Both the position numbers and the translations under genes were made by a program. 64,000 nt of DNA from Spirochaetota bacterium. GTDB lineage: Bacteria > Spirochaetota > Spirochaetia > Treponematales > UBA12059. The DNA is taken from positions 1 to 64,000 of the forward strand of contig JAHIWG010000143.1 in assembly GCA_018816345.1 (NCBI GenBank). Reading direction: 5' to 3'. Position 1 is the stretch's first letter, and each line of letters opens with the position of its first letter. Positions 4,404-34,386 of the stretch are shown here, piece after piece. The notes below the pieces were generated by a model. That model worked only from the letters and a program-made list of their open reading frames with translations. It was not told the origin of the DNA and made no database searches.

Positions 4404-4406
4404 TCG

Positions 4407-5486: not shown

Positions 5487-5495
5487 AGGTAGCGT

Positions 5496-6413
5496 ATGGC
5501 CAAGACCGTATTCAGGCCCCAGGAGACAGTTCGCCTCGCAAGCGCCTTCGTGCTCAGCACGCCGGGGGGCGAGGCCGTAGTCGAGGAGCTCGAGGACGCC
5601 GCGCCCACCATGGAGTACGAGGGCCCGACCGCCGACGACCTCCGCCGCGAGGCCGAGCTCTATAAGCAGAACTGGGAGCGCGAGAAGGAGGCCATGATAG
5701 CCGCCGCCCGCGCGGAGGCCCAGGACATCGTCGCCAAGGCGGAGGCCGCGGCCTTCGAGGAAGTGAAGCGCAAGAACGACCAGGCGCTCAAGATACGGCG
5801 CGAGGCCGAGTCCGCCGCCGAGAAGGCCCTGCGCGAGGCCGAGGCCAAGATCCAGGCCTTCGAGGCCCAGGCGAAGGCCAGGGTCGACGAGGTGACCAAG
5901 GAGGCCCACAAGGAGGGCTTCGACCAGGGGCGGGAGGAGGGCTTCAAGGAAGGCAAGCTCGAGGTCGAGCGGCTCGTGGACAGGCTCCACGTGATACTCG
6001 ACCGAGCGATGGACAAGCGCGCCGAGATACTCGAGCAGACCGAGGCCCAGGTGGTGGAGCTCGTGCTCCTCATCGCCCGCAAGGTCGTCAAGACGATATC
6101 CGAGAACCAGAAGAACGTCGTGCTGTCCAATATCGCCCAGGCCCTGCGTAAGCTCAAGACGAGGAGCGACGTGATCGTGCGCGTCAACATCGCCGACCTG
6201 CAGCTGACCACGGAGCACGCCAAGGATTTCATAGAGGCCGCGGAGAACGCCAAGAAGCTCGCGATAGTGGAGGATTCCGGCGTAGACAGGGGCGGATGCA
6301 TAATCGAGACGGATTTCGGCGAGATAGACGCGCGCATCCAGAGCCAGCTCCACGAGCTCGAGGAGAAGATCCTCGACATCTCGCCCATAAAGGCGCGGGG
6401 AAAGGCGCAGTAG
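5496..6413 (+). CDS. fliH: Flagellar export stator protein FliH
   Basis: Peripheral stalk and regulator of the FliI ATPase in the export apparatus. 305 residues, longer than enteric FliH. An N-terminal spirochaete-type segment (MAKTVFRPQETVRLASAFVL) precedes a long Ala/Glu/Lys-rich coiled coil (about residues 50-150) with Gly-spaced helices (EGFDQGREEGFKEGKLE). The C-terminal FliI-binding domain follows (KVVKTISENQKNVVLSNIAQ). It lies between fliG and fliI with gaps of 9 and 4 nt. Confidence 0.93.
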   Translation: MAKTVFRPQETVRLASAFVLSTPGGEAVVEELEDAAPTMEYEGPTADDLRREAELYKQNWEREKEAMIAAARAEAQDIVAKAEAAAFEEVKRKNDQALKIRREAESAAEKALREAEAKIQAFEAQAKARVDEVTKEAHKEGFDQGREEGFKEGKLEVERLVDRLHVILDRAMDKRAEILEQTEAQVVELVLLIARKVVKTISENQKNVVLSNIAQALRKLKTRSDVIVRVNIADLQLTTEHAKDFIEAAENAKKLAIVEDSGVDRGGCIIETDFGEIDARIQSQLHELEEKILDISPIKARGKAQ

Positions 6414-6417
6414 GGCC

Positions 6418-7821: not shown

Positions 7822-8303
7822 AGCGCTTCTCGTTCGGCCTGGAGAAGGTGCTCGAGCTGAGGGACTACGCTAAGCGGGTCGCGGAGGCCAGGCTGGCCGA
7901 GAAATCCGCGGCCTGCGAGCGTCTCGCCCTGTCGCTCGAGGCGAACGCCGGAGCCACGCTCGCGGCCTCGCGCGAGCGTTTCAGGCCCGGTACGGGAGCC
8001 GCCGACCATCGCGCGAGCGAGCTGTACGCGGTCCGACTCTCCCAGGAGCGCGATAGGCTGATGAAGGCGGCCGCCATGGCCGAGGCCCAGCGCGAGACCT
8101 CTAGGCTAGCGTACGTGGAGGCCAGCAAGTCGAGGGAAATCGTGTCGAAGCTCCGCGAGCGCGAGGAGGCGGCCTACTACAAGGCCGTCGGGCGCGAGGA
8201 GACGAAGAGCATGGACGACCTGGCGTCCGGCGCGCATTCTCGCGCCATGGGCGCCATCCACACAGAGAAGAACGTAGAGGGGTACCATGGCATCGTTCGG
8301 TAA
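7818..8303 (+). CDS. fliJ: Flagellar export chaperone-like protein FliJ
   Basis: Stalk of the export ATPase that links FliI to the FlhA gate. 161 residues, nearly all predicted coiled coil with Ala/Glu/Arg-rich heptads. The N-terminus (MKRFSFGLEKVLELRDY) matches the FliJ pattern. It overlaps fliI by 4 nt and flbB by 17 nt, so all three are probably translated together. Sequence conservation in this family is low, and the position between fliI and flbB supports the call (Borrelia order). Confidence 0.88.
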   Translation: MKRFSFGLEKVLELRDYAKRVAEARLAEKSAACERLALSLEANAGATLAASRERFRPGTGAADHRASELYAVRLSQERDRLMKAAAMAEAQRETSRLAYVEASKSREIVSKLREREEAAYYKAVGREETKSMDDLASGAHSRAMGAIHTEKNVEGYHGIVR

Positions 8304-8919
8304 GCGGCGCGTATTCGGCAGGGTTGTCGTCATGCTCATCATGATCCTCGCGCTCGTCATCGGCGGGCTGTTCTGGTTCGACTACCTAGGAGTCGTCGAC
8401 GCTAAGTCGTTCTTCGCGCCGGCCCTCAGGCTAGCCGGCATAAAGACCCGTTCCGAGGGGGCCTTGCCGGCGGATTCCCCGACCCTTTTGGACGACGAGC
8501 GCTTCGAGAAGCAGCTGGCGGCCGTGGAGGCGATGCGGCAGGAACTGTCGGCGCGCGAGAAAGCCGCCGCCGAGAGGCAGTCGGCCGTCGAGGCCATGGC
8601 CCAGGAAATAGACGATAGGGCCAAGACTCTCGACGAAAGAGAGAATTCGTTCAAACAAATGGCGGAACGGTACGAGAATAGAAGAGCGAACGTCGAGCAA
8701 AACGCCCGATACCTGACCGGCATGCCCCCGGCGGACGCCGTGAAGATCCTGGCGGCCTCGGACGATCAGACGATCATCGACGTGTTGCGAGCCGTCGAGG
8801 AGATCGCTGCTCGGACCGGAGAGGCGTCCGTCGTCTCGTATTGGCTATCGCTGCTGCCCGCGGAGCGTTCGGCTACGCTGCAGCGCAAGATGAACGCGAA
8901 ACCTGCGTCGTTAGACTAG
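8287..8919 (+). CDS. flbB: Periplasmic flagellar collar protein FlbB
   Basis: Spirochaete-specific collar protein needed for collar and stator assembly in Borrelia. 210 residues. One membrane segment (about residues 12-31, VVVMLIMILALVIGGLFWF) anchors a periplasmic part: a coiled coil (about 70-140) and a MotE/MgtE-N-like C-terminal domain (TGMPPADAVKILAASDDQT). The gene overlaps fliJ by 17 nt, and the start is supported by GAGGGG upstream. It is followed by a strong hairpin that covers the fliK ribosome site. Confidence 0.9.
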   Translation: MASFGKRRVFGRVVVMLIMILALVIGGLFWFDYLGVVDAKSFFAPALRLAGIKTRSEGALPADSPTLLDDERFEKQLAAVEAMRQELSAREKAAAERQSAVEAMAQEIDDRAKTLDERENSFKQMAERYENRRANVEQNARYLTGMPPADAVKILAASDDQTIIDVLRAVEEIAARTGEASVVSYWLSLLPAERSATLQRKMNAKPASLD

Positions 8920-8928
8920 CGCCTGATC

Positions 8929-8973
8929 GGCTCCTTTTAGGGCCGTCCGGCGCGGCCGGACGCGAAAGGAGCC
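8929..8973 (+). promoter_or_regulatory. Hairpin masking the fliK Shine-Dalgarno
   Basis: Outer stem GGCTCCTTT (8929-8937) pairs perfectly with AAAGGAGCC (8965-8973). An inner stem, CGTCCGG (8944-8950) with CCGGACG (8956-8962), closes a 5-nt loop. The fliK ribosome site AAAGGAG (8965-8971) lies wholly inside the outer stem, and the ATG is at 8981. No T-run follows, so this is more likely a translational control element than a terminator. Confidence 0.75.
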
Positions 8974-8980
8974 TGCATAG

Positions 8981-10255
8981 ATGCTGGCGCTACCACGTAT
9001 CGTCGCCCCAGAAGGCGGTCTAGGGGCGGCTCATCGCTCCCCGCGCGCCTCGAAGTCGACTCTTCCCGTAGAGAGCCCGTTCCTTAAGCTGCTAGCCGGC
9101 CTACGATCGGGCAAGGCCGATCGCCCCGCCGGCGCGAACGCCGCCCCCGAGGCGAAGCTCGCTACCCGGTCGGTCTCGGCCGATACGCGCGCGGCCGGAT
9201 CCGCCGCGGCGAGGGCGAACGGCGGGGCGGCCCTCGCCGAACGGAATCCTAACGGCGCCGCCAAGGCGGCGGGATCCGTCCGCGAGGCCCGCGAGGCCCG
9301 CGAGGCCGGTTCCAGGCTAGTCCCCAAGGCGGGCGCCGTCGACGGGGATCTCGCTCGGCACGCTACGCGTCGAACGGGGACTGAAAAATCGAATAAAGGC
9401 GCCTCCGACGGCATCGAAGCCTCTATGGCGGCGGGGGCGTCCCTCGCGGCCGCGCCTATGCCCAAGGGAACCGAGAAGGCGAACGCCCAGGCCTGGCGAT
9501 CCTCCGCCGACGCCGACGCGAACCGGTCCGGGATCGAGACGCTAGGCGCCCATACGGAGCGCGGCAAGGACGGCGCCAAGGTCACCGTCATGGATATGCG
9601 GCTCAAGGCATCCCGTGAGCTCGCCTCCAAGCGGAACGAGACTAAGGCCGGCGCTCAGGGAGAGAGCCAGCAGGAGGCGACGAAGAGCGAGGTCCGAGGC
9701 GCGAGCCAGGATCCCTCGGCCCTAGCCGGCCGCGTTTTCTCCAGGGAAGACGGCCCCTCCGGCTCGCCAGCCCAGGCCCCCGCCGAGGCCGCGCCCGCCG
9801 CGCCCAAGAGCTTCGCCGAATCGCTCGCCACGCGCCTGCGCGACGGGGCCGCCGACATCGTGCGCTCGGCCCAGGTCGTGCTCCGGGACGGGGACTCCGG
9901 GATAATCCGCCTGCGCCTGGAGCCCGAATCGCTCGGAGGCGTCAAGATCGAGCTCAAAATGACCGAAAAGCAAATAAGCGGCAAGATAGTCGTAGAGTCC
10001 GACATAGCGGGCGACGCGTTCCGGGCGTCGATAGACGCGCTCAAGGACGCGTTCGCCGAGAGCGGGTTCGAGACGACGGCGCTCGAGGTAGAGGTCAGGA
10101 ACGGCATGGCCTCGGGATCGGGGGAGGGCAGGGGCCGTAGGGAGGGCGACGAGAGCGCGGGGGCCTATCGGAGCCGCTCGCTCAGGGAGCTCTCCGAGGC
10201 GGTCCCCTCGCTATCGCAGCCCGGGCGCGAAGGCGCGCTCAACGTAATCGTGTAA
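8981..10255 (+). CDS. fliK: Flagellar hook-length control protein FliK
   Basis: Secreted molecular ruler that sets hook length and switches export specificity through FlhB. 424 residues. The first about 280 residues are low-complexity, rich in Ala, Gly, Lys and Glu, as expected of the ruler part. The conserved C-terminal hook-length domain (about 285-385) includes DGDSGIIRLRLEPESLGGVK and GKIVVESDIAGDAFRASIDA. The ATG at 8981 follows AAAGGAG by 9 nt, and that site is buried in a hairpin. Position between flbB and flgD matches the Borrelia ruler gene. Confidence 0.9.
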   Translation: MLALPRIVAPEGGLGAAHRSPRASKSTLPVESPFLKLLAGLRSGKADRPAGANAAPEAKLATRSVSADTRAAGSAAARANGGAALAERNPNGAAKAAGSVREAREAREAGSRLVPKAGAVDGDLARHATRRTGTEKSNKGASDGIEASMAAGASLAAAPMPKGTEKANAQAWRSSADADANRSGIETLGAHTERGKDGAKVTVMDMRLKASRELASKRNETKAGAQGESQQEATKSEVRGASQDPSALAGRVFSREDGPSGSPAQAPAEAAPAAPKSFAESLATRLRDGAADIVRSAQVVLRDGDSGIIRLRLEPESLGGVKIELKMTEKQISGKIVVESDIAGDAFRASIDALKDAFAESGFETTALEVEVRNGMASGSGEGRGRREGDESAGAYRSRSLRELSEAVPSLSQPGREGALNVIV

Positions 10256-10270
10256 GGTAAGGAGCGATCC

Positions 10271-10705
10271 ATGGATATAGACCTAAGGATGAGCCAGGCG
10301 GACGCGGCGAGGACGAGGCTCCAGGTCGATACGCTCAATAAGGAGCTAGGCGGGGGCAAGGCCTTCAAGCCGGACCTGGATAAAGACGATTTCCTCAAGA
10401 TCCTCATAACCCAGCTCCAGCATCAGGACCCGACGAACCCGATGCAGGATAAGGAATTCATAGCCCAGATGGCGCAGTTCTCGTCGCTCGAGCAGATGAC
10501 CAATATGGCCACGAGCTTCGGGAAGCTGTCCAGCGTCCTGAATTCCAGCGAGGCCCAGTCCCTGCTAGGCAGGAACGTCGAGGTGCTCGAGGGCGACAAG
10601 GCGATCTACGGCAAGGTGTCGCAGGTCGTCCGCGGCGAATTCCCGCTCGTCATGGTCAACGGATCGTTCTATGACCTCGAGCAGGTCAGCAAAGTCGAAG
10701 AGTAA
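10271..10705 (+). CDS. flgD: Flagellar hook assembly scaffold FlgD
   Basis: Hook-cap protein that permits FlgE polymerisation. 144 residues, shorter than enteric FlgD (about 230) because the C-terminal Ig/tudor-like part is reduced. The signature DDFLKILITQLQHQDPTNPM is followed by KEFIAQMAQFSSLEQMTNM. It begins 15 nt after fliK and is followed by flgE with a strong AAGGAGG site. The short form is common in spirochaetes. Confidence 0.96.
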   Translation: MDIDLRMSQADAARTRLQVDTLNKELGGGKAFKPDLDKDDFLKILITQLQHQDPTNPMQDKEFIAQMAQFSSLEQMTNMATSFGKLSSVLNSSEAQSLLGRNVEVLEGDKAIYGKVSQVVRGEFPLVMVNGSFYDLEQVSKVEE

Positions 10706-10717
10706 GGAGGCGCCGTT

Positions 10718-12109
10718 ATGATGCGCTCGTTGTATTCAGGCGTAGCCGGCCTCCAGAACCACCAGGTCCGCATGGACGTGCTCGGCAACAACATCGCCAA
10801 CGTGAACACCACCGGCTTCAAGAAGGGCCGGGCCAACTTCCAGGACCTTCTGTACCAACAGATGTCCGGCGCCGCCAGGCCGACCGACGAGGTCGGCGGC
10901 GTTAACCCAAAGGAAATAGGACTCGGTATGTCGATAGCATCGATAGACACGATCCATACGCAGGGCTCGCTCCAGACCACCGGGGTCATGACCGACCTCG
11001 CAATCCAGGGCAACGGATTCTTCGTGCTGGCCAAGGGCGAGCAGACCATGTTCACCCGCGCCGGAGCCTTCGGCCTCGACGCCGACGGCCGCCTGGTCAA
11101 TCCGGGCAACGGCCTGCGCGTGCAGGGCTGGAACGCCCAGGTCGTCAACGGCGTCGAGGTCCTCAACACCTCGGGCGCCCTCGACGACCTCGTCATCCCG
11201 GTCGGCTCCAAGGATCCGGCCCGCGCCACCGAGCAGGTCTTCCTGGCCTGCAACCTAGACAAGCGCCTGCCGGAGATCCCCGAGGGCGCGGCCCTCGAGA
11301 CGATCAGGCAGGGTACCTGGCGCGTCGAGGAGAAGGTCTACGATTCCTTCGGCAAGCAGCATATCCTGCGCGTCGAGTTCACCCGCGTGCCCGGCCAGCC
11401 CAATCAGTGGCAGGCTACCGTCAACGTGGATCCCGAGGCGGCCGCGCAGACTAACGCCGCGGTCGGGCTCAATCCCGAGGGGCTCCAGGGCAATACCTTC
11501 ACCGTGGAATTCGACAACCTCGGTACGCTCCGCCGGATTACCGACGGGCAGGGCAACCCCTCCGCCGAGACCGGCCTGCTGTCGATGAACGTGGCGTTCG
11601 ACGTGGCCGACGCGACCGCGGGAGAGGGCGGCGCCCCGACGAGGCAGACCTTCGCGCTGAACCTCGGGACGGCCGGCAGCGTGAGGAGCACCGTGACCCA
11701 GTTCGCCGAGGCGTCGAGCACCAAGGTCTTCGATCAGGACGGCTACGGCATGGGCTACCTCGAGAATTTCAAGATCGACCAGTCCGGCATGATCACCGCC
11801 GTCTACTCCAACGGGTCGACGAGGACGCTCGGTCAGGTAGCCCTGGCCAGCTTCACCAACCCCAACGGCCTCGAGAAGACCGGGGAGACCAACTTCGTCG
11901 CGTCGAACAACTCGGGCATGGCAAATATCGGGCCCTCGGGCATCGCGGGCAAGGGCAAGCTCATAGCAGGCGCCCTCGAGATGTCCAACGTGGACCTGGC
12001 CGAGCAGTTCACCGATATGATAGTGACTCAGCGCGGCTTCCAGGCCAACTCGAAGACCATACAGACGTCCGACCAGCTCCTTCAGGAGCTCCTGACGCTC
12101 AAGCGATAA
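10718..12109 (+). CDS. flgE: Flagellar hook protein FlgE
   Basis: Structural subunit of the hook. 463 residues with the N-terminal rod/hook signature ([20 protein letters not shown]) and the C-terminal helix ([20 protein letters not shown]). In the D2-type insertion, residues K165, C178 and N179 occur in the contexts [10 protein letters not shown] and LACNLDKR. These are the positions of the lysinoalanine cross-link pair reported for Treponema denticola FlgE, so subunits are probably covalently joined. Either of two adjacent ATGs (10718, 10721) could start it; GGAGG spacing favours 10718. Confidence 0.97.
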
Positions 12110-12140
12110 GCGCGGGCGATCCTAGCGCACGGAGGCGACG

Positions 12141-12338
12141 ATGATAACGCTGACTAGGCTGTCCGGCGACGAGTTCTGGCTCAACCCGCATCAGATCGAG
12201 TATATTGAGCGGGCGCACGATACGTCGATCGCGATGCTGTCCGGGAAGCGCGTCATCGTCCGGGAGACGGTGCCCGTCGTCATAGAGAAGATAGTCGAGT
12301 ACCGTCGCCTCATTGGCGCGTTCAAGAACGAGGAGTAG
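12141..12338 (+). CDS. flbD: Flagellar protein FlbD
   Basis: Small conserved protein (65 residues) usually found between flgE and motA in spirochaetes and Gram-positives. It has the family pattern MITLTRLSGDEFWLNPHQIE and a basic/hydrophobic C-terminus. Its molecular role is not settled. The ATG has GGAGGCG upstream. motA starts 3 nt after its stop, so it is part of the same transcript. Confidence 0.92.
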   Translation: MITLTRLSGDEFWLNPHQIEYIERAHDTSIAMLSGKRVIVRETVPVVIEKIVEYRRLIGAFKNEE

Positions 12339-12341
12339 GGG

Positions 12342-13124
12342 ATGGATCTCGCTACTATTATTGGATTAGGCGCCGGATTCTTCTGTATAGTCGCGTCTAT
12401 GTACGCCTCGGGCGGCGTGGTCACGACCTATCTCGACCCGGCCAGCGCCCTCATGACGATAGGCGGATCGTTCTTCGCCCTCCTCATGAACTACTCCATC
12501 AAGGACATGCTGGCGATATTCAAGATCATCGGCATGGCCTTCAAGGTGCCTGATTTCGGCGAGATGAAGATAGCCGAGTCCCTCCTGTCCCTCTCGGAAC
12601 GCGCCAGGCGCGAGGGCATACTATCCCTGGAAGAGGAGATAGAGGGCGTGGAGAGCGCCTTCATGAAGCGCGGCCTGCGCATGGTGGTCGACTCGACCGA
12701 TCCCGAGGTGATAAAGAACATCCTCGAGAACGAGCTTTCGCAGATGAACGACCGCCACGGCAAGTGGCTCAAGATGCTCGACCAGTGGGCCAAGCTGGCC
12801 CCGGGCATGGGCATGCTCGGCACCGTCCAGGGCCTCATAGCCATGATGAAGAACCTCGAGGACAAGAGCCGCATCGGCCCCAACATGGCCGTGGCCCTGA
12901 TCACCACCTACTACGGCGCCATGATGGCGAACTTCCTCATCATGCCCCTCATGGGAAAGCTCGCGGGGCACGACGCCGCGGAGACTAAGGTCAGGGAGAT
13001 GATCATCGAGGGCGTGCTTTCGATCCAGCAGGGCGATAACCCGCACATACTCCAGATGAAGCTCTCCTCGTACCTGTCGCCCGAGAGCCAGCGGAAGCTC
13101 GAAGAGCTTCACCCCGCCGCGTAA
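12342..13124 (+). CDS. motA: Flagellar motor stator protein MotA
   Basis: Ion-channel stator subunit that pushes on FliG. 260 residues with four membrane segments, two near the N-terminus (about 4-24 and 33-50) and two after the cytoplasmic loop (about 148-205). The loop contains the acidic/basic torque region, and the segment WAKLAPGMGMLGTVQGLIAM is typical of the family. motB follows after 11 nt. Whether the ion is H+ or Na+ cannot be read from the sequence with confidence. Confidence 0.97.
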   Translation: MDLATIIGLGAGFFCIVASMYASGGVVTTYLDPASALMTIGGSFFALLMNYSIKDMLAIFKIIGMAFKVPDFGEMKIAESLLSLSERARREGILSLEEEIEGVESAFMKRGLRMVVDSTDPEVIKNILENELSQMNDRHGKWLKMLDQWAKLAPGMGMLGTVQGLIAMMKNLEDKSRIGPNMAVALITTYYGAMMANFLIMPLMGKLAGHDAAETKVREMIIEGVLSIQQGDNPHILQMKLSSYLSPESQRKLEELHPAA

Positions 13125-23974: not shown

Positions 23975-24841
23975 ATGGAAGACCAGGCGCAGAAGCTTCG
24001 CGAGTTGATGAGCACTAAGTCGCAGGGGCAGCAATCCGCTAAGAAGACCCGCGTCATCACCGTCGCTAGCGGCAAGGGCGGCGTCGGCAAGACGAACCTC
24101 TCAGTCAACCTCGCCATCGCCTACGCGCGAACCGGCAAGCGCGTCATGGTCATGGACGCCGACCTAGGCCTCGCCAACGTCAACATCATGCTCAATATGA
24201 TACCCAAGTACAACCTGTACCACGTGATACGCAAGCAGAAGACCATGAAGGAGATAATCCTGGATACCGAGTACGGCATCCAGATCCTGGCCGGCGCCTC
24301 GGGCTTCTCGAAGATCGCCAATCTCGGCGAGGAGGAGCGTCAGAACTTCATCACCGACCTCTACGCGCTGACAAACGTCGATATAATTATAATAGACACG
24401 AGCGCGGGCGTATCGAACAACGTGCTCTCGTTCATAGCGGCGGCCGACGACGCCATAATCATCACTACGCCGGAGCCTACGGCCATTACCGACGCCTACG
24501 GCATAATCAAGATAATCGCTACCGAGGTCGAGAACCTTAACATCGGGCTGAAACTGGTGGTCAACCGCGTCAAGAACGTCACCGAGGGCCGGAAGGTAGC
24601 CGAGCGCATCATCAACATCTCCGGGCAGTTCCTCAACCTCAAGGTGGAGTACCTCGGCTGCATATACGAGGATCCAATCGTTCCGGCCTCGGTGCTCAAG
24701 CAGAAGCCGTTCATCGTCCAGGACCCGAAGTCGAAGGCCGCCATCTCGGTCCAGCACCTGGTAAGCCGGATAGAGAAGACGGAATTCGTCGACGACCGCG
24801 GAATAGGGCGCTTAATAAAGAAACTATTCGCCAAAGAGTAG
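23975..24841 (+). CDS. flhG: MinD/ParA-type ATPase FlhG
   Basis: Negative regulator of flagellar number that stimulates FlhF. 288 residues. The N-terminal DQAQKLREL (residues 3-11) matches the FlhF-activating helix of FlhG. The deviant Walker A is GKGGVGKT (33-40), followed by VMDADLGLANVNIMLN and the DTSAGVSNNV switch region. The C-terminal basic/hydrophobic helix (GRLIKKLFAKE) is a likely membrane-targeting sequence. A 75-nt gap separates it from flhF. Confidence 0.96.
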   Translation: MEDQAQKLRELMSTKSQGQQSAKKTRVITVASGKGGVGKTNLSVNLAIAYARTGKRVMVMDADLGLANVNIMLNMIPKYNLYHVIRKQKTMKEIILDTEYGIQILAGASGFSKIANLGEEERQNFITDLYALTNVDIIIIDTSAGVSNNVLSFIAAADDAIIITTPEPTAITDAYGIIKIIATEVENLNIGLKLVVNRVKNVTEGRKVAERIINISGQFLNLKVEYLGCIYEDPIVPASVLKQKPFIVQDPKSKAAISVQHLVSRIEKTEFVDDRGIGRLIKKLFAKE

Positions 24842-24926: not shown

Positions 24927-25640
24927 GTGGACTCGAGTATTCGCGCGTCCGCCTTTGCGGGGCTCGGCGCGTTCGCCCTGTCGATAATAGTCGCCATGTT
25001 CTCTCGAGTCCCTCTCGGCGCGCTACTCGTGCGCGCCTTGCTGTCGGGTATAGGCTTCGCCGGCCTTATTTTCGGCGCTCAATGGATATTACGTCGATTC
25101 CTCCCGGAACTATTCGACGATCCGGCCCGTTCGCCCGCGCCCTCGACGGACGCGTTGTCGGGGACGATGGTCGATATAGTGCTGCCCGGCGGCGAGGAGG
25201 AGAGGCTAGAGCCGTCGTCCTCCGCCGCGGGCCCCAGGCCCGGCGACGCCGAGGCGCCGCGCCTAGACGCGATAGGAGCCGAGCCCCGGCCGACGGTCGA
25301 TTCGGGCGACCTGCAGCGCGAGGTCGACGACCTCCGCTCTGACGCCCTGATAGCGAGCGATCCCATGGAGGCCGTTCGTTCGGGAAGCGTCGCGCCGCGG
25401 CCTTCCATAGCCCTTGACGAGTTAGATACCTTGCCCGACTTGGACGGATTCAGCGATTCGTTCACAGAAGGCCAGCCCGGCGAGATCGATACGTCGGGCT
25501 CACCCGGCGGAGGCTCCTCCCGGTTCGCGGGCGTCTCCGATACCATGCCGACGGCCGGCGATCCCGACCCAGGACGCGATCCGGTAGTACTGGCCAAGGC
25601 CGTGCAGACCTTACTGCGTAGAGACCAGAAAGGGCAATAA
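24927..25640 (+). CDS. Membrane protein of unknown function between flhG and fliA
   Basis: 237 residues, not matched to a named family. Two N-terminal hydrophobic segments (about 8-27 and 30-52) are followed by a long acidic, Pro/Ser/Gly-rich, probably disordered region. A short basic C-terminal helix closes the protein (DPVVLAKAVQTLLRRDQKGQ). The GTG start has GGGAGG upstream. Because it sits between flhG and fliA and only 3 nt before fliA, a flagellar role is likely (inference). The ordered C-terminal helix could be a docking peptide. Confidence 0.8.
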   Translation: MDSSIRASAFAGLGAFALSIIVAMFSRVPLGALLVRALLSGIGFAGLIFGAQWILRRFLPELFDDPARSPAPSTDALSGTMVDIVLPGGEEERLEPSSSAAGPRPGDAEAPRLDAIGAEPRPTVDSGDLQREVDDLRSDALIASDPMEAVRSGSVAPRPSIALDELDTLPDLDGFSDSFTEGQPGEIDTSGSPGGGSSRFAGVSDTMPTAGDPDPGRDPVVLAKAVQTLLRRDQKGQ

Positions 25641-25643
25641 TAA

Positions 25644-26432
25644 ATGAATAATTCCCTGCTGGAGCACCACAGCGAAGAAGAGCTATGGGCTGCCTATAAG
25701 CAGCGCAAGGATCCGCTCATTCGCGAGTCGTTCATCAAGCAATACGCTCCATTAGTGAAATACGTCGCGGGCAAGGTAGCGGCCAACATGCCCGCTTCGG
25801 TAGAATTCGACGACCTGGTCGGGTTCGGGGTTTTCGGCCTCATCGACGCCATCGATAAATTCGATCCCGACAAGAACGTAAAATTCAAGACCTACGCCGT
25901 GACCCGCATCCGCGGGGCCATCTTCGACGAGCTCCGGAGCATCGACTGGGTGCCCCGCTCGGTCAGGCAGAAGACGAAGGAGATCGAGGAGGCCATCCTC
26001 GGCACCGAGGCCAAGCTAGGCAGGCCCGCGACCGATCAGGAGGTCGCGGAGACCCTTGGCCTCTCCGAGGACGAATTCGCCAAGACGATGCTCAAGATAT
26101 CGAGCACCTCGGTCCTGTCCCTCAACGATATCTGGTATAGCGCCGACGACGCCGAGCATATGACCATAGGCGACAGCATCGAGAGCCCGACGAGCCTGAG
26201 CCCGGACTCCATGATAGAGCGGGACGAGATAAGGCGGGTAGTCGTAGAGGCCATCCAAGAGCTTCCCGACAAGGAGAAGAAGGTGCTCGTGCTGTACTAC
26301 TACGAGGAGCTTACGCTCAAGGAGATAGGCAAGGTCCTCGAGGTCACCGAGTCCCGCATCAGCCAGCTGCATACCAAGGCCATACTGAGGCTCCGCGCCA
26401 AGCTAACCCATTACCGCAGGGGCATCGTCTAG
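25644..26432 (+). CDS. fliA: Flagellar sigma factor sigma-28 (FliA/WhiG)
   Basis: Alternative sigma factor for late flagellar genes. 262 residues. Region 2 includes VEFDDLVGFGVFGLIDAIDK and FKTYAVTRIRGAIFDELRSI. Region 3 includes GRPATDQEVAETLGLSEDEF. Region 4 has the helix-turn-helix LTLKEIGKVLEVTESRISQL. It lies 3 nt after the preceding gene and its stop is immediately followed by the ATG of the FapA-like gene. No anti-sigma factor FlgM is visible in this window. Confidence 0.97.
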   Translation: MNNSLLEHHSEEELWAAYKQRKDPLIRESFIKQYAPLVKYVAGKVAANMPASVEFDDLVGFGVFGLIDAIDKFDPDKNVKFKTYAVTRIRGAIFDELRSIDWVPRSVRQKTKEIEEAILGTEAKLGRPATDQEVAETLGLSEDEFAKTMLKISSTSVLSLNDIWYSADDAEHMTIGDSIESPTSLSPDSMIERDEIRRVVVEAIQELPDKEKKVLVLYYYEELTLKEIGKVLEVTESRISQLHTKAILRLRAKLTHYRRGIV

Positions 26433-28421
26433 ATGGACGCGCGCATAGGCTTCGAGGCGGTACGAGAGCTGATGCGCCGCTACATGGACGAGGACGGCGA
26501 TAAGCGCTCCGTGGTGGCCGAGGGCGCGACCGTGGAGGAGGCCCTCAAGAGCGCCGCCGTCCAGCTCGACTGCCCCGTCGCCCGCATCGAGTACGACGTA
26601 CTCGAGAAGGGCATGCAGGGATTCATAGGCATAGGCAGCAAGCGGTGGAAGATAAGCGCCTACGAGGCGGCGGTCAAGAAGAAAGTCGAGGCGGAATTCG
26701 ACGACTCCTTCGACGCAGGCTTCGACCTGCCGGTAGAGCTGAAGCCCCTGCAGCGCGACGTCGACGGCCAGGCCTTCGTGAGGCTCGCGTCCGACGGGGC
26801 CCTCCTCAAGGTCACCCCGCCCGTCGGCAAGGGGAAGAAGGCCAGCGAGAAGCTAGCCGTCGATAAGCTGCACGCCCGAGCCATCCGAGACTTCGACGAG
26901 GCTCTCGTAAAGGAGACTATCAAGGCCGCGAGTTCCGAGTGGGTCCACGTCGGCTCCTTCATCGCCAACCCCGCCGCCGACGCGCTTCTGACCGTGGAGC
27001 TGGGCTCTCAGGAGATGGAAGCCCGCGTCGTCATAACGCCGCCGCAGCCGGGCGGGTGCGACCTCTCCAAGGACGTGATACTGGCGTACCTGCGGAATAA
27101 TAAAGTCGTCTTCGGCGTCATCGAGGAAGCGCTACAGGCGCTCGAGGACGCCCCCCGCTTCAAGGAGCCGATACTCGTCGCGCAGGGCCAGAAGCCGGTC
27201 AACGGCGAGGACGGGCGGATCCAGTTCATGTTCGAGACGGATAGGACGAAGCTGAACCTCGAGGAGAAGAACGGCAAGGTCGACTATAAGGAGCTCCACC
27301 TCGTCCAGAACGTCGTGGAGGGCCAGGCCCTCGCCCGAAAGATCCAGGCCCAGCAGGGCGTCCCGGGGAGGACCGTTACCGGGAAGCTCCTCCCGGCGAA
27401 GAACGGCAAGGATCTGCCGCTCCCCCTCGGGAAGAACGTCCACGCGAGCGACGACGGCCTCACGATCATCGCCGACGTGAACGGTGAGGCGACGTACATA
27501 AACAGCAAGATAAACGTGGAGACCGTATACACCATCGCCGGCGACGTGGACCTGAAGTCCGGCAACCAGTTCTTCCTGGGCACCATCGTGGTGGTGGGCA
27601 ACGTCGAGGACGGCTTCTCCGTCAAGGCGACCGGCAATATCGAGGTGAGGGGAAACGTCGGCAAGGCGGAGATAAGCGCCGAGGGCGACGTCATCGTGCA
27701 CCAGGGAATAACCGGCAAGGGAGCGGGGTCGGTGACGGCGGGCAAGAACGTATGGGCCAAGTTCATAGAGAACGCCAACGTGACCGCCGGCGAGAACGTC
27801 ATCGTCCAGACGAGCATCATCAACTCCGAGGTCACGGCCGAGAAGCGCATCGTCTGCTCCGGGCAGAAGCACGCTTCCATCATCGGCGGCCGCTACCGGG
27901 CCTGCGAGGAGATCAACGCCAAGTCGATCGGCTCCCCCTCGGGCGGAGCGGAGACTATCCTCGAGGTCGGTAGCGATCCTAAGAGCAAGGCGAAGATGGA
28001 CGAGATCGACTCGAAGCAGAAGGTCCTCCAGCGCCAGCTCGACGAGCTCGACAAGAACATCTACACGATGAACGAGACCAAGCGCCAGCGGAAGTCGCTT
28101 CCCGACGATAAGCAGGCCGTCCTGGACGAGCTCGTCCATAAGCGCGACGAGATCGGGGCGGAGGCCTCCGCCCTGAAGGCCGAGTACGATACCATCCAGG
28201 CCTACCTGAATAACCTCAAGGTCAGGGGCAAGGTCAGCGTCTCGGGTCGCATCTACCCGGGCACCGAGATAGTGATCAGGGATATCAGGGAGAAGATAAA
28301 GAACGAGTATAAGGGCCTGACGTTCTACCTTGAGAACATGATGGTCAAAACTACGCGCTACGAGGAATTCGACGACGAGATCCTCAAGAAAGGGCCTCCC
28401 GATGCCCATAAAGCCGATTGA
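26433..28421 (+). CDS. FapA-family (DUF342) protein with N-terminal Jag-like domain
   Basis: 662 residues. An N-terminal Jag-N-type module (about 20-70, KRSVVAEGATVEEALKSAAV and GMQGFIGIGSKRWKI) precedes a FapA/DUF342 region (about 200-480) with its beta-helical, Gly/Val/Asn-rich repeats (for example GDVIVHQGITGKGAGSVTAG). A coiled coil (about 520-600) and a conserved tail follow. DUF342 proteins are polymer-like scaffolds, and FapA of Vibrio affects polar localisation. Its stop-to-start contact with fliA (0 nt) places it in the flagellar transcript. Exact role unknown. Confidence 0.9.
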   Translation: MDARIGFEAVRELMRRYMDEDGDKRSVVAEGATVEEALKSAAVQLDCPVARIEYDVLEKGMQGFIGIGSKRWKISAYEAAVKKKVEAEFDDSFDAGFDLPVELKPLQRDVDGQAFVRLASDGALLKVTPPVGKGKKASEKLAVDKLHARAIRDFDEALVKETIKAASSEWVHVGSFIANPAADALLTVELGSQEMEARVVITPPQPGGCDLSKDVILAYLRNNKVVFGVIEEALQALEDAPRFKEPILVAQGQKPVNGEDGRIQFMFETDRTKLNLEEKNGKVDYKELHLVQNVVEGQALARKIQAQQGVPGRTVTGKLLPAKNGKDLPLPLGKNVHASDDGLTIIADVNGEATYINSKINVETVYTIAGDVDLKSGNQFFLGTIVVVGNVEDGFSVKATGNIEVRGNVGKAEISAEGDVIVHQGITGKGAGSVTAGKNVWAKFIENANVTAGENVIVQTSIINSEVTAEKRIVCSGQKHASIIGGRYRACEEINAKSIGSPSGGAETILEVGSDPKSKAKMDEIDSKQKVLQRQLDELDKNIYTMNETKRQRKSLPDDKQAVLDELVHKRDEIGAEASALKAEYDTIQAYLNNLKVRGKVSVSGRIYPGTEIVIRDIREKIKNEYKGLTFYLENMMVKTTRYEEFDDEILKKGPPDAHKAD

Positions 28422-28725
28422 CCTCCAGACGCTGTTCCTGCAGCTAGGGCAGGTAGGCAAGCAGCAGGCCGCGGAGAAGGACGGCGCCCTCCTGCACGCC
28501 AACCTGCACGGCGCCGCGGCGAAGCGGATCGAGGACGAAGCCGCGAAGGCCGTACATCGCCCCGAGGACGCGCAGACCGCCACGGAATCGGTCAAGGACG
28601 ACGGCGGCAAGCCTCCGGGCTACCAGGGCGACGAGAAGAAGCGAGACGACGGCAAGGCTCCCGAGGACGACGTCGAGACTATCAGCGACCCGGCGCTCGG
28701 CGGCAACGTCGACATATCCGGATAG
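28402..28725 (+). CDS. Small hydrophilic protein, unknown function
   Basis: 107 residues; family not recognised. The N-terminus (MPIKPIDLQTLFLQLGQVGK) is helical and amphipathic; the rest is very hydrophilic, rich in Lys, Asp, Glu and Gly, and likely disordered. It overlaps the FapA-like gene by 20 nt and its stop abuts the next ATG, so it is translated within the flagellar run. Frame usage (G/C at third positions) agrees with a real gene. Confidence 0.8.
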   Translation: MPIKPIDLQTLFLQLGQVGKQQAAEKDGALLHANLHGAAAKRIEDEAAKAVHRPEDAQTATESVKDDGGKPPGYQGDEKKRDDGKAPEDDVETISDPALGGNVDISG

Positions 28726-29442
28726 ATGATGACGCCCGCGCTGATAGCCATAGCCGTACAGGTAATAGTTTCCGCCCTCCTCATAGCATGGACCCGGATC
28801 AAGGTGAGGCGCTTCCTTGGATCCGAGGACGAGATTGACAAGATAAGGCGCGAGATCGGGGCCCTGATAGTGGAGCTGGACGCGAGCGCCGACCGGAACG
28901 TCACGGTCCTTGAGGACCGGCTTACGGCCCTCAAGGAGCTCCTCGTAGAGGCTGACAGGCGGATATCCCTCCTCGGGCAGGAACGCGCGAGGCCGAGGGC
29001 GGACGGAGCCGGGTACGATAGGCTCGGTAGGCCCGCCGAGCCCTCCCGCGCGGCTCCCGCCGTCGCGTACGGGTCGGGCGAGGAGCTTCCGCCCGTGCCC
29101 GGCGTCTCCGTACCCGCCGCGCAAGTATCCTCGGCGCCAGCCTCGCCGGGCTCCTCGAGAGCCGCGCCCGTACCCGCCGCGCCAGCCGCGCCAGCCGAGC
29201 CTGGCGCCGGGAGCGCCGCCTATACCGAGGCGCCCCGCTCGCGCGAACCTGACGTTCCCTTCATACGATTTTCTGAGAAGCCCGTATCGATAGAGGAGCC
29301 TTTCGTCGATAAGGTAATATCGCTCTCTCGCCGGGGATTCTCGAGCGACATCATCGCCGCCCGACTCGGCGCGACAATGGCCGAAGTCGACATCGTACTC
29401 TCAATGGAAAACGAGCGGGACGGCCGAACCGAGGAACACTAG
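28726..29442 (+). CDS. SwrB-like membrane-anchored protein
   Basis: 238 residues. An N-terminal membrane helix (about 4-21, ALIAIAVQVIVSALLIAW) is followed by a coiled coil (about 35-85) and a Pro/Ala-rich linker. The C-terminal module (about 190-230) reads DKVISLSRRGFSSDIIAARL then MAEVDIVLSM. This helix-turn-helix-like tail, the anchor and the position close after the sigma-28 gene match the layout of Bacillus SwrB/YlxL (DUF6115), which promotes basal-body maturation. The match is by architecture, so the call is an inference. Confidence 0.7.
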   Translation: MMTPALIAIAVQVIVSALLIAWTRIKVRRFLGSEDEIDKIRREIGALIVELDASADRNVTVLEDRLTALKELLVEADRRISLLGQERARPRADGAGYDRLGRPAEPSRAAPAVAYGSGEELPPVPGVSVPAAQVSSAPASPGSSRAAPVPAAPAAPAEPGAGSAAYTEAPRSREPDVPFIRFSEKPVSIEEPFVDKVISLSRRGFSSDIIAARLGATMAEVDIVLSMENERDGRTEEH

Positions 29443-29443
29443 C

Positions 29444-31159
29444 GTGCGCGGCATTATCGGCCTCGATTTCGGTACGACCAACACCCTCTGCGCATGGATG
29501 GACGGCGACTCTCCTATCATCGTCCCGAACGACAGGGGCGAGAGGGCGACGCCCTCCGTCATAGCGCGGACCGACTCGGGCGAGCTCATCGTAGGATCGT
29601 CGGCGAGGAACCAGGCCCTCGCCGATCCCAGGTCGGCGCTATTCGGTGTCAAGCGGCTGCTAGGCTCCTCGGGGCCAGTAGAATTCGGCGGCCGGAGCTT
29701 CGCTCCGGAGGACGCCGCGGCCGAGATAATCGCGAAGGCCAAGCGGGACGCGGAGCGCTTCCTCGGATTCGAGATAGACCGGGCGGTTATAACCGTGCCG
29801 GCGCGCTACGGCGATCCTCAACGCAGGGCCGTGCGCGAGGCCGCGCGTCGGGCCGGCCTCAAGGCCGAGCGCGTGATGAACGAGCCGAGCGCCGCCGCCC
29901 TCGCCAGGGCCTGGATGTCCGCCAGGGACGACCAGGAGCGAGTAGTGCTCGTCTACGACTTCGGCGGCGGGACCTTCGACGCCACCGTGCTCAAGGCCAG
30001 GGGCGGATCGTGCACGGTCCTGTCGAGCGAGGGCGACGACGCGCTCGGCGGGATGGACCTCGACCGCGCCCTCTACAGCGACGCCGCGGAGCGCTTCAAG
30101 GCCGAATTCGATATCGATCCCGACGCGGACCCCTACCTGTCGCGCATGCTCGTCGACCTCTGCGAGAAGGCGAAGATAGAGCTGTCGTCGCGGGACGAGG
30201 CCACCATAGCCGTGCCCTTCCTGCGAGGGCCGGGCGGGCTCGTGCACCCGAGCGTAAAGATCGACAGGGCCCGATTCGACCGAATAGCCGCTCCCTTCGT
30301 CGATCGTAGCCTCGCCCTCGTTCGGCGGGTCCTCTCCTCGGCGCGCATGGAGGCCTCTGATATAGGCGCGCTCGTCCTCTCCGGGGGGTCGAGCCGCATA
30401 CCGCTCGTCCGTTCCAGCCTCGCCGGGGAAGTGGGGCGGGAGGCGGACCCCCGCGTCAATCCCGAGGAGATAGTGGCGCTCGGCGCGGCGGTGGAGGCCG
30501 CAAGGCTCGAGGGCAGGCTCGAGGGGCTGTCGTTCACCGACGTCTGCTCGAGGACCTTCGGCCTGGAGATAGACGGCGGGGCGTTCGTGCCGCTCATAAA
30601 GAAGAACGAGCCCCTGCCCGCCCTCGGCAAGAGGATCTTCACGACGGTCGAGGATTTCCAGCGGTCTGTAGAGCTGCACGTGCTCCAGCGGGAAGAGCAC
30701 GAAGCGGCCGCCGGGACCTCCGTCGGGCGCTTCCTCCTGCCCGGCATCAGGAAGGCCAGGAAGGGCGAGCCGAGGATAGCGGTGGAGTTCGCGATAGACG
30801 AGGGCGATATGCTCATAGTACGGGCCCGCGACCTGGATACCGGCGCCGAGCAGTCCATAGCCGTCTTCGACGGGGCGCTCGACCGCCGCTCGCCCGGGGA
30901 CAGGGCGCTAGCCCTCGCGCAGATAGCCAGGCGCGAGGCGGCGGGGCTGACGCTGGACTCGGCGCTAACCTCCGAGCTCGAGGAAGTGCTCGCGATGGCG
31001 GCGGATTGCGGCGCCGACGAGGAGAAGGCCGCGATGGCCGCGACCCTGCTCGAGGGCCTGCTCTCGGAGCTGTCGGCCAGGGCGGCCCTAGCGGGCAAGG
31101 GGCGCGCGGCGTCCTCCGAGCTTCGCTTCCCCGGGCGCCGGCTCGAGGCGGGCCTATGA
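29444..31159 (+). CDS. Hsp70-family chaperone (DnaK-like, short C-terminus)
   Basis: 571 residues, about 60 shorter than housekeeping DnaK. The nucleotide-binding domain has GLDFGTTNTLCAW (phosphate 1), DFGGGTFDATVL (phosphate 2) and LSGGSSRIPLVRSSL (adenosine). The beta substrate domain follows (about 375-500), with only a short helical lid and without the EEVD-type or acidic tail. The GTG start lies 1 nt after the SwrB-like gene, and the stop overlaps the J-protein ATG by 4 nt. It is probably a specialised Hsp70 rather than the cell's main DnaK. Confidence 0.92.
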   Translation: MRGIIGLDFGTTNTLCAWMDGDSPIIVPNDRGERATPSVIARTDSGELIVGSSARNQALADPRSALFGVKRLLGSSGPVEFGGRSFAPEDAAAEIIAKAKRDAERFLGFEIDRAVITVPARYGDPQRRAVREAARRAGLKAERVMNEPSAAALARAWMSARDDQERVVLVYDFGGGTFDATVLKARGGSCTVLSSEGDDALGGMDLDRALYSDAAERFKAEFDIDPDADPYLSRMLVDLCEKAKIELSSRDEATIAVPFLRGPGGLVHPSVKIDRARFDRIAAPFVDRSLALVRRVLSSARMEASDIGALVLSGGSSRIPLVRSSLAGEVGREADPRVNPEEIVALGAAVEAARLEGRLEGLSFTDVCSRTFGLEIDGGAFVPLIKKNEPLPALGKRIFTTVEDFQRSVELHVLQREEHEAAAGTSVGRFLLPGIRKARKGEPRIAVEFAIDEGDMLIVRARDLDTGAEQSIAVFDGALDRRSPGDRALALAQIARREAAGLTLDSALTSELEEVLAMAADCGADEEKAAMAATLLEGLLSELSARAALAGKGRAASSELRFPGRRLEAGL

Positions 31160-31797
31160 GCGAGCGGGCCATGTATATTGCGCTCGGGCTCGAGCCGGGC
31201 GCGCCCTCGGCCGAGCTGAAGCGCGCCTATAGGAACCTCAGCCTCAAGCTGCATCCTGACGCCTCGGGCGACCCGAGGACGGCCAGGCGCTTCGCCGTCG
31301 TCGCCAAGGCCTACGAGACGCTATCGGTCAAGGCGCGCGAGCGCTCGGGGCCGGCGCCGAGGCCGCTGGCCGATACGGAAAGCGTCGACCTATTCGCCCT
31401 CGGCTCAGAGCTCGCGACCGACCCCGATCCCGATCGCCGCCGGGCCGCCGCGAGGCGGCTCGGGCTGTCGGGCAAGAGGAGCGCGTGGGTGTTCCTCCGT
31501 AAAGGCCTGTACGACGCCGATCCCGAGGTGGCCGCCGCTTGCGTCCGGGCCGCCGCCGTGCTAGGCCTGGCCCAAGGCTCGGGCGAGATCGCCGGGGCCT
31601 ACGAGCGGGCAGGCCCGGCGCTCCGCGACTCTATACTGGAATCGGCTAAGGCTACGCGCGACGCGCTCTTCCTGGCCGCGCTCGAGGCGGCGAAATCGGA
31701 CGACGACCCGCGCCGCAGGGCCACGGCCTGCTCACTGCTATCCGAGCTTCGCTCCGCCTCGGCCGGCGACGGCCTGAGCCGCGCCGAGGTCTCCTGA
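31156..31797 (+). CDS. J-domain protein with HEAT-like repeats
   Basis: 213 residues from an ATG overlapping the Hsp70 stop (ATGA). Residues 5-60 form a J-domain with HPD at 33-35 (RNLSLKLHPDASGD). Residues about 90-205 are Ala/Arg/Leu-rich helical repeats of about 30 residues (for example DPDPDRRRAAARRLGLSGK, DPEVAAACVRAAAVLGLAQG, DDDPRRRATACSLLSELRSA) resembling HEAT/PBS repeats. No Gly/Phe or zinc-finger region is present, so it is not DnaJ proper. It most likely recruits the adjacent Hsp70 to a particular client. Confidence 0.88.
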   Translation: MSERAMYIALGLEPGAPSAELKRAYRNLSLKLHPDASGDPRTARRFAVVAKAYETLSVKARERSGPAPRPLADTESVDLFALGSELATDPDPDRRRAAARRLGLSGKRSAWVFLRKGLYDADPEVAAACVRAAAVLGLAQGSGEIAGAYERAGPALRDSILESAKATRDALFLAALEAAKSDDDPRRRATACSLLSELRSASAGDGLSRAEVS

Positions 31798-31808: not shown

Positions 31809-31840
31809 CTAGCCCGCGGGGCCTTGGCCTAGCCCGCGGG
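31809..31840. repeat. 12-bp direct repeat at a convergent gene junction
   Basis: CTAGCCCGCGGG occurs at 31809-31820 and again at 31829-31840 (period 20). The second copy contains the stop codon of the minus-strand regulator (31829-31831). It also lies in a larger palindrome, with GGCCTAG (31826-31832) pairing CTAGGCC (31843-31849). No T-run follows on either strand, so a canonical terminator is not evident. Confidence 0.5.
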
Positions 31841-33184
31841 CTCTAGGCCGTAATCCTGTATCTTCTGGTAGAGCGTCTTGCGGCCTATGCCGAGGATCTC
31901 GGCGGTACGGCTCTTGTTGCCTCCCTGGGCCGCGAGCGTCTCCCGAATAAGGATGCGCTCGGCGTCGGCGAGGCTTGAACCCGGCGGTACCCTGATCACG
32001 CTCTCCTCCTCGCCCGGGCGGACGCTCGGGGGAAGGTCGTCCATGGTCACCAGGCCGCCGGAGGCCATCACCACGGCGCTCTCTATGCAGTTGCGCAGCT
32101 CGCGCACGTTCCCCGGCCACGAGTAGGCGAAGAGGGCGGCGCGGGCCTTAGGGTCGAAGCCCTCGATGGGCTTGCCGTTGTCGTCGGCGAACTCCTTTAG
32201 GAAGGCCCCTGCCAGGAGGGGTATGTCGTCCTTTCGCTCCCGGAGCGGCGGCACGTGTATATTGACGACGTTAAGCCGGTAGTACAGGTCCTCGCGGAAG
32301 GCGCCGGAGGCGATCTCCTCCTTGAGGTCCTTGTTTGTCGCGGCGACGACGCGGACGTCGGTCTCTATCGTGCTCTCGCCCCCGACGCGCTCGAAGCGCT
32401 TGTCCTGGAGCACCCGGAGTATCTTGATCTGTACGTTCTGGTTTATCTCGCCTATCTCGTCGAGGAACAGCGTGCCCTCGTTGGCCAGCTCGAAGCGCCC
32501 CTTCTTCCGGGCCTGGGCCCCGGTGAACGAGCCCTTCTCGTGCCCGAACAGCTCGCTCTCCAGGAGGGATTCCGCGAGGGCCGCGCAGTGCACCTTGATG
32601 AAGGGCTTGTCGGAGCGAGGCGACAGGTTGTGTATCGCGTCGGCGACGAGCTCCTTGCCCACGCCGGACTCCCCGGTGATGAGCACGCTGGCCTTGGTCG
32701 GCGCGACGCGGCGGACCAGGTCGAAGATGCGCCTGATGGAAGGGCTCTTGCCCACTATCGTGGAGGTTCGGCGCTGGGTCTCCACCTCCTCCATGAGCTC
32801 CTCGTTGCGCCTCGCCAGCTCGCGGCGCTCCAGGGCGCGCTTGACGAGTATCGAGAGGTGGTCGAGGTTGACGGGCTTGGTTATGAAGTCGTACGCGCCG
32901 TTGCGCATCGCGCTGACGGCGTCCTCCACCGTGCCGTGGCCCGTAAGGACGATGACGGGGACCGACGGGTACCGCGAGGCGACGTGCTTGAGCAGGTCGC
33001 CGCCCGAGAGGCCGGGCATGCGGAGGTCGGTGATAACGAGGTCTACGTCGCCGCGGTCGACGGCCGCCACGCCCTCCCTGCCGTCGGCGGCGAGCGATAT
33101 GTCGTAGCCGTCGAGCCGCAGGTATTCCCCAAGGCCCTCGCGTATGTTCTTCTCGTCGTCTACGACGAGTATCGTGAATCTCAT
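31829..33184 (-). CDS. atoC: NtrC-type sigma-54 response regulator
   Basis: 451 residues. Receiver domain with phospho-acceptor D53 (VITDLRMPG). The AAA+ domain has Walker A GESGVGKE (171-178), the sigma-54 contact loop GSFTGA (218-223; canonical GAFTGA) and Walker [12 protein letters not shown] Fis-type helix-turn-helix lies at the C-terminus ([20 protein letters not shown]). Its ATG overlaps the sensor kinase stop by 4 nt, so the two form a pair. It presumably activates sigma-54 promoters; the target genes cannot be read here. The name atoC follows treponemal usage. Confidence 0.93.
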
Positions 33185-34386
33185 CTGGCCTCCTCCGGCG
33201 ACCCGGAGGGCCGCGTCCCGCAGTCGTTTCCGTCGGGGCAGGCGCCGGTAATCATGCGCCTCTCCCGCTGCGGTATCGGCAGCGTTATAACGAACGAGGA
33301 GCCCTGGCCCGGCTTCGAGGTGACCGAGATATCGCCGCCGTGCTCCTTTATGATCTTATAGGTGAGCGTGAGGCCGAGGCCCGTGCCGTTCTCCTTGGTC
33401 GTGAAGTACGGCTCGAATATCTTGCCTAGCTTGTCCTCGGGGATGCCGGCGCCGGAATCCTCCACCGCTATCTTGAGCTCGTCCCCGGTCGCGGCGGTCG
33501 AGAGCCTGAGCTCGCCGCCGTCGGGCATAGCCGCGGTCGCGTTCTTCACCAGGTTAAGGAGCGCCTGCTTGAGGTAGCGCCTGTCGAACGGGACAGGCGG
33601 CGCGTCCTTGGCGTACTCGACGGAGAGCGAGATGCCCGCGCTCTCCACCTCGAGCCTCATGAACTCGGCTAGCTCGCGGAGGAGGGCGTTGGCGTCGTCG
33701 TTGATCGGCGTTATGTCCATGGGCCTGACGGCGAACAGGAAGTCGACGACTATCTTATTGAGCCTGTCTATCTCCTCGGTGACTATGTCGAGGTATCGCG
33801 TCAGCGGCTCCTCGGCCTTGCCCTTGAGCGCCTTGCGCATCAACTGGACGTGGATGCTTATGGAACCGAGCGGGTTCTTTATCTCGTGGGCTACCCCGGC
33901 CGCGAGGGTCGTCAAGGAGGCGAGGCTCTCGGCCCTGCGCAGCCTGGCCTCCCTGCGGCGCTTGTCGGTAGTCTCCTCCACGTGTATGAGCGTGCCCCGG
34001 ATGCGCCTGTCCCTGACGAGGGGCGTCACGCTGACCGCTATGATGCGCGTCCCCGCCTTCGTGTCGAGTGCGAATTCCCTGTCGATTATCGACTCTTCGC
34101 CGTTCAGCGCCTTGTCGAAGAAATCCGAAAGCTCGTCGTCGCGCACGCTCTCCCAGAGCGGCGCGTCGAACAGCTCCACCTGCGAGACGGGGAGGAGCCG
34201 CTCGGCCGCCTTGTTCACGAGTATGGGCGCGTGGTCCTCGTCGCAGACTACTATCCCGTCCATCATGGAGTCGAGCACGGCGTCGAGCCGCTCGTTCTCG
34301 TCGGCCAGCACCCTGAGGAGGCCCCGGATCGAATCCTCGTTCATCCGGGAGACCTTCTCCATGGCGCGCTCCAGGAACTTCCTCAT
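33181..34386 (-). CDS. atoS: Cytosolic PAS sensor histidine kinase
   Basis: 401 residues with no membrane segment, so a soluble NtrB-type kinase. A PAS domain (about 30-140) is followed by HisKA with the H-box VAHEIKNPLGS (phospho-His 167). The HATPase domain has N-box NLVKNATAA, G1 DSGAGIPEDKLGKIFEP and G2 GTGLGLTL. The C-terminal about 25 residues form an extension with two Cys. The stop overlaps the regulator ATG, and the start overlaps the holB stop. The signal it senses is unknown. Confidence 0.93.
   Translation of the reverse strand: MRKFLERAMEKVSRMNEDSIRGLLRVLADENERLDAVLDSMMDGIVVCDEDHAPILVNKAAERLLPVSQVELFDAPLWESVRDDELSDFFDKALNGEESIIDREFALDTKAGTRIIAVSVTPLVRDRRIRGTLIHVEETTDKRRREARLRRAESLASLTTLAAGVAHEIKNPLGSISIHVQLMRKALKGKAEEPLTRYLDIVTEEIDRLNKIVVDFLFAVRPMDITPINDDANALLRELAEFMRLEVESAGISLSVEYAKDAPPVPFDRRYLKQALLNLVKNATAAMPDGGELRLSTAATGDELKIAVEDSGAGIPEDKLGKIFEPYFTTKENGTGLGLTLTYKIIKEHGGDISVTSKPGQGSSFVITLPIPQRERRMITGACPDGNDCGTRPSGSPEEAR

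Follow-up and report, generated by a model that had tools for sequence, protein, structure and literature searches.

The chaperone pair and its flagellar neighborhood

In the 64,000 nucleotides of spirochaete DNA analyzed here (the window), a run of flagellar genes on the forward strand ends in two chaperone genes. The first (29444..31159, +) opens with a GTG codon and encodes an Hsp70 of 571 aa with intact ATPase residues (Pfam HSP70, E = 1.3e-120), whose AlphaFold model (pLDDT 86) has the DnaK fold, comprising a DnaK-type nucleotide-binding domain (NBD), a beta-sandwich and a short three-helix lid. Aligned with Escherichia coli DnaK, the NBD (29444..30514, + strand, boundary approximate) is devoid of the segment corresponding to DnaK residues 76–101. 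The substrate-binding beta-sandwich (SBD; 30539..30868, +; model strands within residues 363–475) carries an acidic arch, with Asp at the position of DnaK M404 and Glu at that of T437, and is followed by the helical lid (30893..31108, +; model helices 484–555) and a low-confidence tail.

The second gene (31156..31797, +; ATG start) encodes a co-chaperone of 213 aa, referred to as J-HEAT, which contains a J domain (31156..31344, +) with the HPD motif at residues 33–35 and HEAT helical repeats at residues about 78–205 (31387..31770, +). The initial annotation had recognized a J-domain protein with HEAT-like repeats, and both profiles support this (Pfam DnaJ, E = 1.5e-14; HEAT_2, E = 3.6e-8), as does an AlphaFold model (pLDDT 90) in which a confident J domain precedes a stack of helices, the nearest solved folds being alphaRep/HEAT binders. 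DnaJ and HEAT are the only domains found, so that J-HEAT has the features of a class C J protein, with HPD and with no G/F or zinc domain. HPD is kept in all 36 J-HEAT sequences aligned, and conservation is equal in the HEAT part and the J domain. The coordinates also confirm the tight coupling noted at first sight: the preceding flagellar gene stops at 29442, one nucleotide before hsp70 begins at 29444, and hsp70 and J-HEAT overlap by 4 nt (ATGA, 31156–31159). Both genes evolve under purifying selection (dN 0.15–0.20, dS about 0.8–1.1 against relatives of the same genus).

Upstream, all on the + strand, lie flhG of MinD type (23975..24841; Pfam ParA/CbiA and synteny), a gene in the flgV position encoding a 2TM protein with a tail (24927..25640; assigned by position and synteny, with no match in Pfam or NCBIfam), the flagellar sigma-28 gene (25644..26432; NCBIfam FliA_WhiG, E = 3.9e-87), fapA (26433..28421; Pfam FapA, E = 2.4e-71), a small gene in the YjfB position (28402..28725; synteny, order given in PMC11607428) and, directly ahead of hsp70, a flagellar TM/HTH gene resembling DUF6115 (28726..29442; synteny, the Borrelia counterpart matching DUF6115). 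The same order has been published for the flagellar superoperons that include flgV (PMC11607428). Downstream and convergent with the pair, an NtrC-type regulator and a PAS kinase occupy 31829–34386 (−); the regulator is found again near the pair in several relatives, and flagellar sigma-54 control of the region is possible.

A second Hsp70 of a derived subfamily

The source genome (175 contigs, 96% complete) carries grpE, dnaK and dnaJ together and in normal order on another contig, C43. The absence of a housekeeping dnaK-dnaJ-grpE order, as first remarked, therefore holds within the window and fails for the genome as a whole. With a standard DnaK present elsewhere, the window Hsp70 is a second Hsp70, and its being simply the main DnaK is ruled out. 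It scores 421 bits against the prok_dnaK equivalog, below the cut-off of 822.55. Other Hsp70-like fragments in this genome all lie near contig ends (C74:249-539, C105:293-622 and C102:19120-19704).

Alignment of 40 flagellar Hsp70s reveals a consistent combination of retained and altered features. The catalytic residues (D8, K70, E171, D194, GGGT, D201) are kept in all 40, as is N170, and D393 is kept in 39, with Glu in the remaining one. DnaK residues 76–101 are deleted throughout, and the DnaK linker VLLL is replaced by a stretch of alternating hydrophobic and polar residues ahead of D393. M404 of the arch is Asp or Glu in 36 of the 40 and T437 is Glu in 37. As to the GrpE signature, the absence of which marks HscC, the 290–295 segment is altered, with H295 and F285 retained. 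The tail was rightly called short: in 37 of 40 relatives it comprises 70–99 residues beyond the beta-sandwich, compared with 132–147 in spirochaete DnaK. In trees, the flagellar Hsp70s, including the Borrelia copies, separate from spirochaete DnaK. Judged by these sequence characters, the flagellar Hsp70 is a derived subfamily with intact ATPase residues, a short lid, an altered linker and an acidic arch, and its acidic pocket would be expected to prefer basic segments. At L149 (11392–14822, +), away from flagellar genes, lies a second Hsp70 gene whose product has about 580 aa (longest frame 636–648), and a J protein is encoded two genes further along.

Distribution across the class and beyond

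The pair was sought in 297 genomes of the class, with Hsp70 counted above 600 bits and motility read solely from the marker genes FliG and FlhA. The Hsp70 occurs in 44 of these genomes, and J-HEAT is also present in 42 of the 44; of the two others, one is explained by a contig end and one (f78) has cheW in the place of J-HEAT. Twelve further genomes have J-HEAT with an Hsp70 that is broken, missing, cut or weakly scoring. The Hsp70 search scored four candidates per genome and missed such eroded copies, which the J-HEAT profile recovered. Weak J matches in f3 and f13, which cover the J domain and no more than some of the HEAT region, were excluded. A scan with a J-HEAT profile built on a 10-row alignment matched uncultured MAGs only.

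The position of the pair within the class is constant. In the recurrent order flhG-flgV-sigma28-fapA-yjfB-TM/HTH-hsp70-J-HEAT, the two genes stand behind the same flagellar genes on every long-enough contig of 16 families (f1, f2, f4, f8, f9, f17, f56, f62, f65, f70, f71, f74, f79, f81, f83 and f84). The two reading frames share 4, 8 or 14 nt at 29 of 39 loci.

The pair or its remnant is found in 56 of the 297 genomes, all with FliG or, in two incomplete genomes, FlhA, and in none of the 53 class genomes lacking evidence of either marker. For the association with flagellar genes, Fisher p is 8e-6 with relatedness ignored; the families are related and unequally sampled. FliG is missing in a large part of f13, f57, f58 and f66. 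The co-occurrence with flagella that the initial annotation proposed to check thus stands in one direction, as every carrier in the class sample has a flagellar marker gene, and does not in the other: the pair was not found in many flagellated families, among them f3 (Treponema-like), f5, f6, f10–f12, f72 and others. The module is therefore linked to motility yet accessory, and answers no general need of flagella.

Outside the class, one genome (G051, locus L194) has fapA, TM/HTH, Hsp70 and J-HEAT in order. In another (G054, L193), a near-lidless Hsp70 and J-HEAT follow cheD-cheR-cheB with no flagellar neighbors. Occurrence in non-motile relatives in other contexts had been named at the outset as evidence against a flagellar role; nothing of the kind appears among the 53 class genomes without flagellar genes, and G054 may be a partial exception. 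The G054 operon (4168–12746, −) also contains a HEAT protein with a guanylate cyclase domain, and a GGDEF-EAL regulator lies just downstream. Such a setting would suit a client belonging to chemotaxis (CheA, CheW or the receptor arrays) instead of the flagellum, and in several families cheW or cheA directly follows the pair (L096, L098, L106). However, no che gene adjoins the pair in the window or its relatives, where the constant neighbors are flagellar, and we consider a chemotaxis client quite unlikely.

Loss of the ATPase with retention of the binding parts

Several lineages retain the pair in eroded form, and they constitute a natural experiment on which parts of an Hsp70 count. In family f60, the Hsp70 of G364 (529 bits) keeps its catalytic residues save for changes in the TTN loop. 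The G325 and G340 copies are missing K70, E171, the phosphate loop and the NBD segment that follows residue 36, and the only trace of the Hsp70 ahead of J-HEAT in G353 is a very diverged remnant. At L183 (6771–8282, −) and L184 (6874–8340, −), Hsp70s whose ATPase is inactivated by the loss of K70, E171 and the phosphate loop have an intact acidic SBD and J-HEAT still next to them. In f73 (G342, G414), the beta-sandwich and lid are all that is left of the Hsp70, the Pfam match extending over profile positions 380–492; NBD-less proteins of this form lie ahead of J-HEAT in the flagellar operon at L186 (6790–7479, −) and L187 (3768–4418, −). In f77, NBD and J domain both seem to be gone, leaving SBD and HEAT, with unknown bases in one locus. 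A HEAT-only relative without J domain stands beside an SBD-only Hsp70 at L189 (3963–4382, +) and L188 (2193–2927, −), and in L189 the SBD may be fused, over a stretch of unknown bases, with the TM/HTH gene. Family f67 has a lone J-HEAT with HPD retained. At L192 (9122–9670, +; G482), Hsp70 residues 1–42 are in frame with the HEAT part, either by real deletion or by misassembly.

The f60 pseudo-ATPases and the f73 proteins still have the acidic residues of the arch, D/E404 and E437. A comparison of G325 with G340 gives a dN of 0.35 for SBD plus lid and of 0.53 for the dead NBD; dS is saturated or nearly so. Decay of the J domain along with the NBD is ruled out, since HPD survives in f60 and f73 and only f77 seems to lose both. 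The series suggests that binding outweighs cycling in some lineages. One tentative hypothesis, which we hold to be possible though short of probable, is that the flagellar Hsp70 is evolving from a chaperone driven by ATP into a device that binds passively: the NBD has died (f60) or been deleted (f73, f77), and a free SBD beside J-HEAT or a HEAT-only protein would be selected for the same acidic pocket. If so, the useful part of the flagellar Hsp70 is the holding of a client, not cycling.

These remnants also bear on whether a general-purpose paralogue is merely riding in the operon without a motility client. Hsp70 paralogues are common, and the repeated loss of this one in motile lineages marks it as dispensable. 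Yet its place stays the same in many families and in two classes, it is confined to genomes with flagellar genes, and it has subfamily-specific substrate residues that outlive the ATPase, and mere riding is accordingly very improbable.

Proposed function of the pair

Our preferred reading is that the pair is an accessory, flagellum-dedicated Hsp70 machine of spirochaetes, with the client-binding half as its conserved core, to which we assign a probability of roughly 0.6. That it serves flagella or motility in some way is probable; whether it does so as a client chaperone in flagellar assembly or export is an evenly balanced call. In this mechanism, the HEAT part of J-HEAT would attach to one specific client from the flagellum, the J domain would then trigger ATP hydrolysis by the neighboring Hsp70, and the Hsp70 would clamp a segment of the client in the substrate groove with its acidic arch, so that the client might stay unassembled or folding-competent until use. 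Hsp70 and J-HEAT presumably work together, the client is presumably flagellar, and the HEAT part may select it.

This reading draws on the fixed superoperon position across families and the restriction to flagellar-gene genomes in the class sample, on the near-constant pairing and overlap of the two genes alongside a separate DnaK set, on the intact catalytic residues, HPD and acidic arch, with binding parts outliving the ATPase in f60 and f73, and on the support that general DnaK gives to flagella in other bacteria, e.g., DnaK-FliC (PMC11816700). On the other hand, flagella assemble without the pair in the motile families that do not have it, G054 places it among chemotaxis genes, and HPD is kept beside dead or missing Hsp70s (f60, f73, f67), so that J-HEAT there may recruit the main DnaK and act for it as well.

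That the binding parts stay conserved once the ATPase is gone would also fit sequestration, in which the pair holds a control protein (sigma-28, an anti-sigma factor, FlhF, FlhG or the TM/HTH protein) active or inactive, as DnaK/DnaJ do with sigma-32. In all families, sigma-28, flhG and the TM/HTH gene lie within 3–7 kb of the pair. These genes nevertheless persist in many lineages without it, and Borrelia, which has no sigma-28 (PMC11607428), retains the Hsp70, making a regulator of this type unlikely.

Under the preferred reading of a flagellum-dedicated chaperone, the biology of the group adds interest. In spirochaetes, the flagella lie within the periplasm and govern the shape of the cell, and a special chaperone could thus reveal an assembly step unseen in E. 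coli.

Relation to known Hsp70 systems and to Borrelia BB0264

To our knowledge, dedicated bacterial Hsp70/J pairs are few (HscA-HscB, HscC-DjlC), and none is tied to flagella; nor do we know of DjlB or DjlC as J-HEAT proteins, or of a J-HEAT partner for the Myxococcus xanthus paralogues SglK and StkA. HscA-HscB, whose client is iron-sulphur, resembles the flagellar pair in that the genes of this dedicated Hsp70 and its J protein adjoin those of the pathway they serve, but HscA retains the NBD segment and has a longer lid. There is also a likeness to HscC-DjlC/DjlB of E. coli, where a short Hsp70 (HscC, 556 aa) is paired with a class C J protein dedicated to it (PMC8215388). HscC shares the deletion of NBD residues 76–101, and the 571 aa of the window Hsp70 fit its length range of 550–580. 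However, the gene context is unrelated, and the insertion of 4–8 residues in loop L1,2 of the HscC SBD (PMC8215388) is absent from the window Hsp70 and the other aligned copies, which rules out a straight HscC. Trees place E. coli HscC within the flagellar clade or next to it (support 95, 87), on a very long branch of about 1.5; long-branch attraction is likely, and this placement is not trusted.

Involvement of Hsp70s in motility has precedents. In Pseudomonas aeruginosa, where DnaK interacts with FliC, an Hsp70 is needed to export flagellin and assemble the flagellum (PMC11816700), although the chaperone there is the housekeeping DnaK and not an operon-encoded, dedicated paralogue. In M. xanthus, the Hsp70 paralogues SglK and StkA are dedicated to functions in motility (PMC4319316, PMC8265645), but they serve the type IV pilus and exopolysaccharide, not flagella.

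The pair had been proposed as an undescribed module. As far as we could find, this applies to the J-HEAT partner, the subfamily and the decay series, and no paper on such an Hsp70/J-HEAT pair was found in the open PMC literature (subscription journals not covered); the Hsp70 half has already been described by its position, as bb0264 (PMC11607428). This gene closes the flgB superoperon of Borrelia burgdorferi and is transcribed together with bb0272-bb0264 (PMC11607428); no functional study of it was found in the open PMC literature. Borrelia-like genomes (f7) have the order flhB-flhA-flhF-flhG-flgV-fapA-small gene-TM/HTH-hsp70, and by position their flagellar-operon Hsp70 is BB0264 (DnaK-1). 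It shares with the window Hsp70 its place after flhG-flgV-fapA-yjfB-TM/HTH, its subfamily placement and the NBD deletion. For bb0264, the comparison supplies a family and a partner that has been lost, along with predictions open to test. The window and Borrelia Hsp70s differ in that J-HEAT does not follow hsp70 at the f7 loci and in that the Borrelia proteins, of 485–503 aa, have 15–32 residues beyond the beta-sandwich and hence essentially no lid, compared with the short lid and adjacent J-HEAT of the window.
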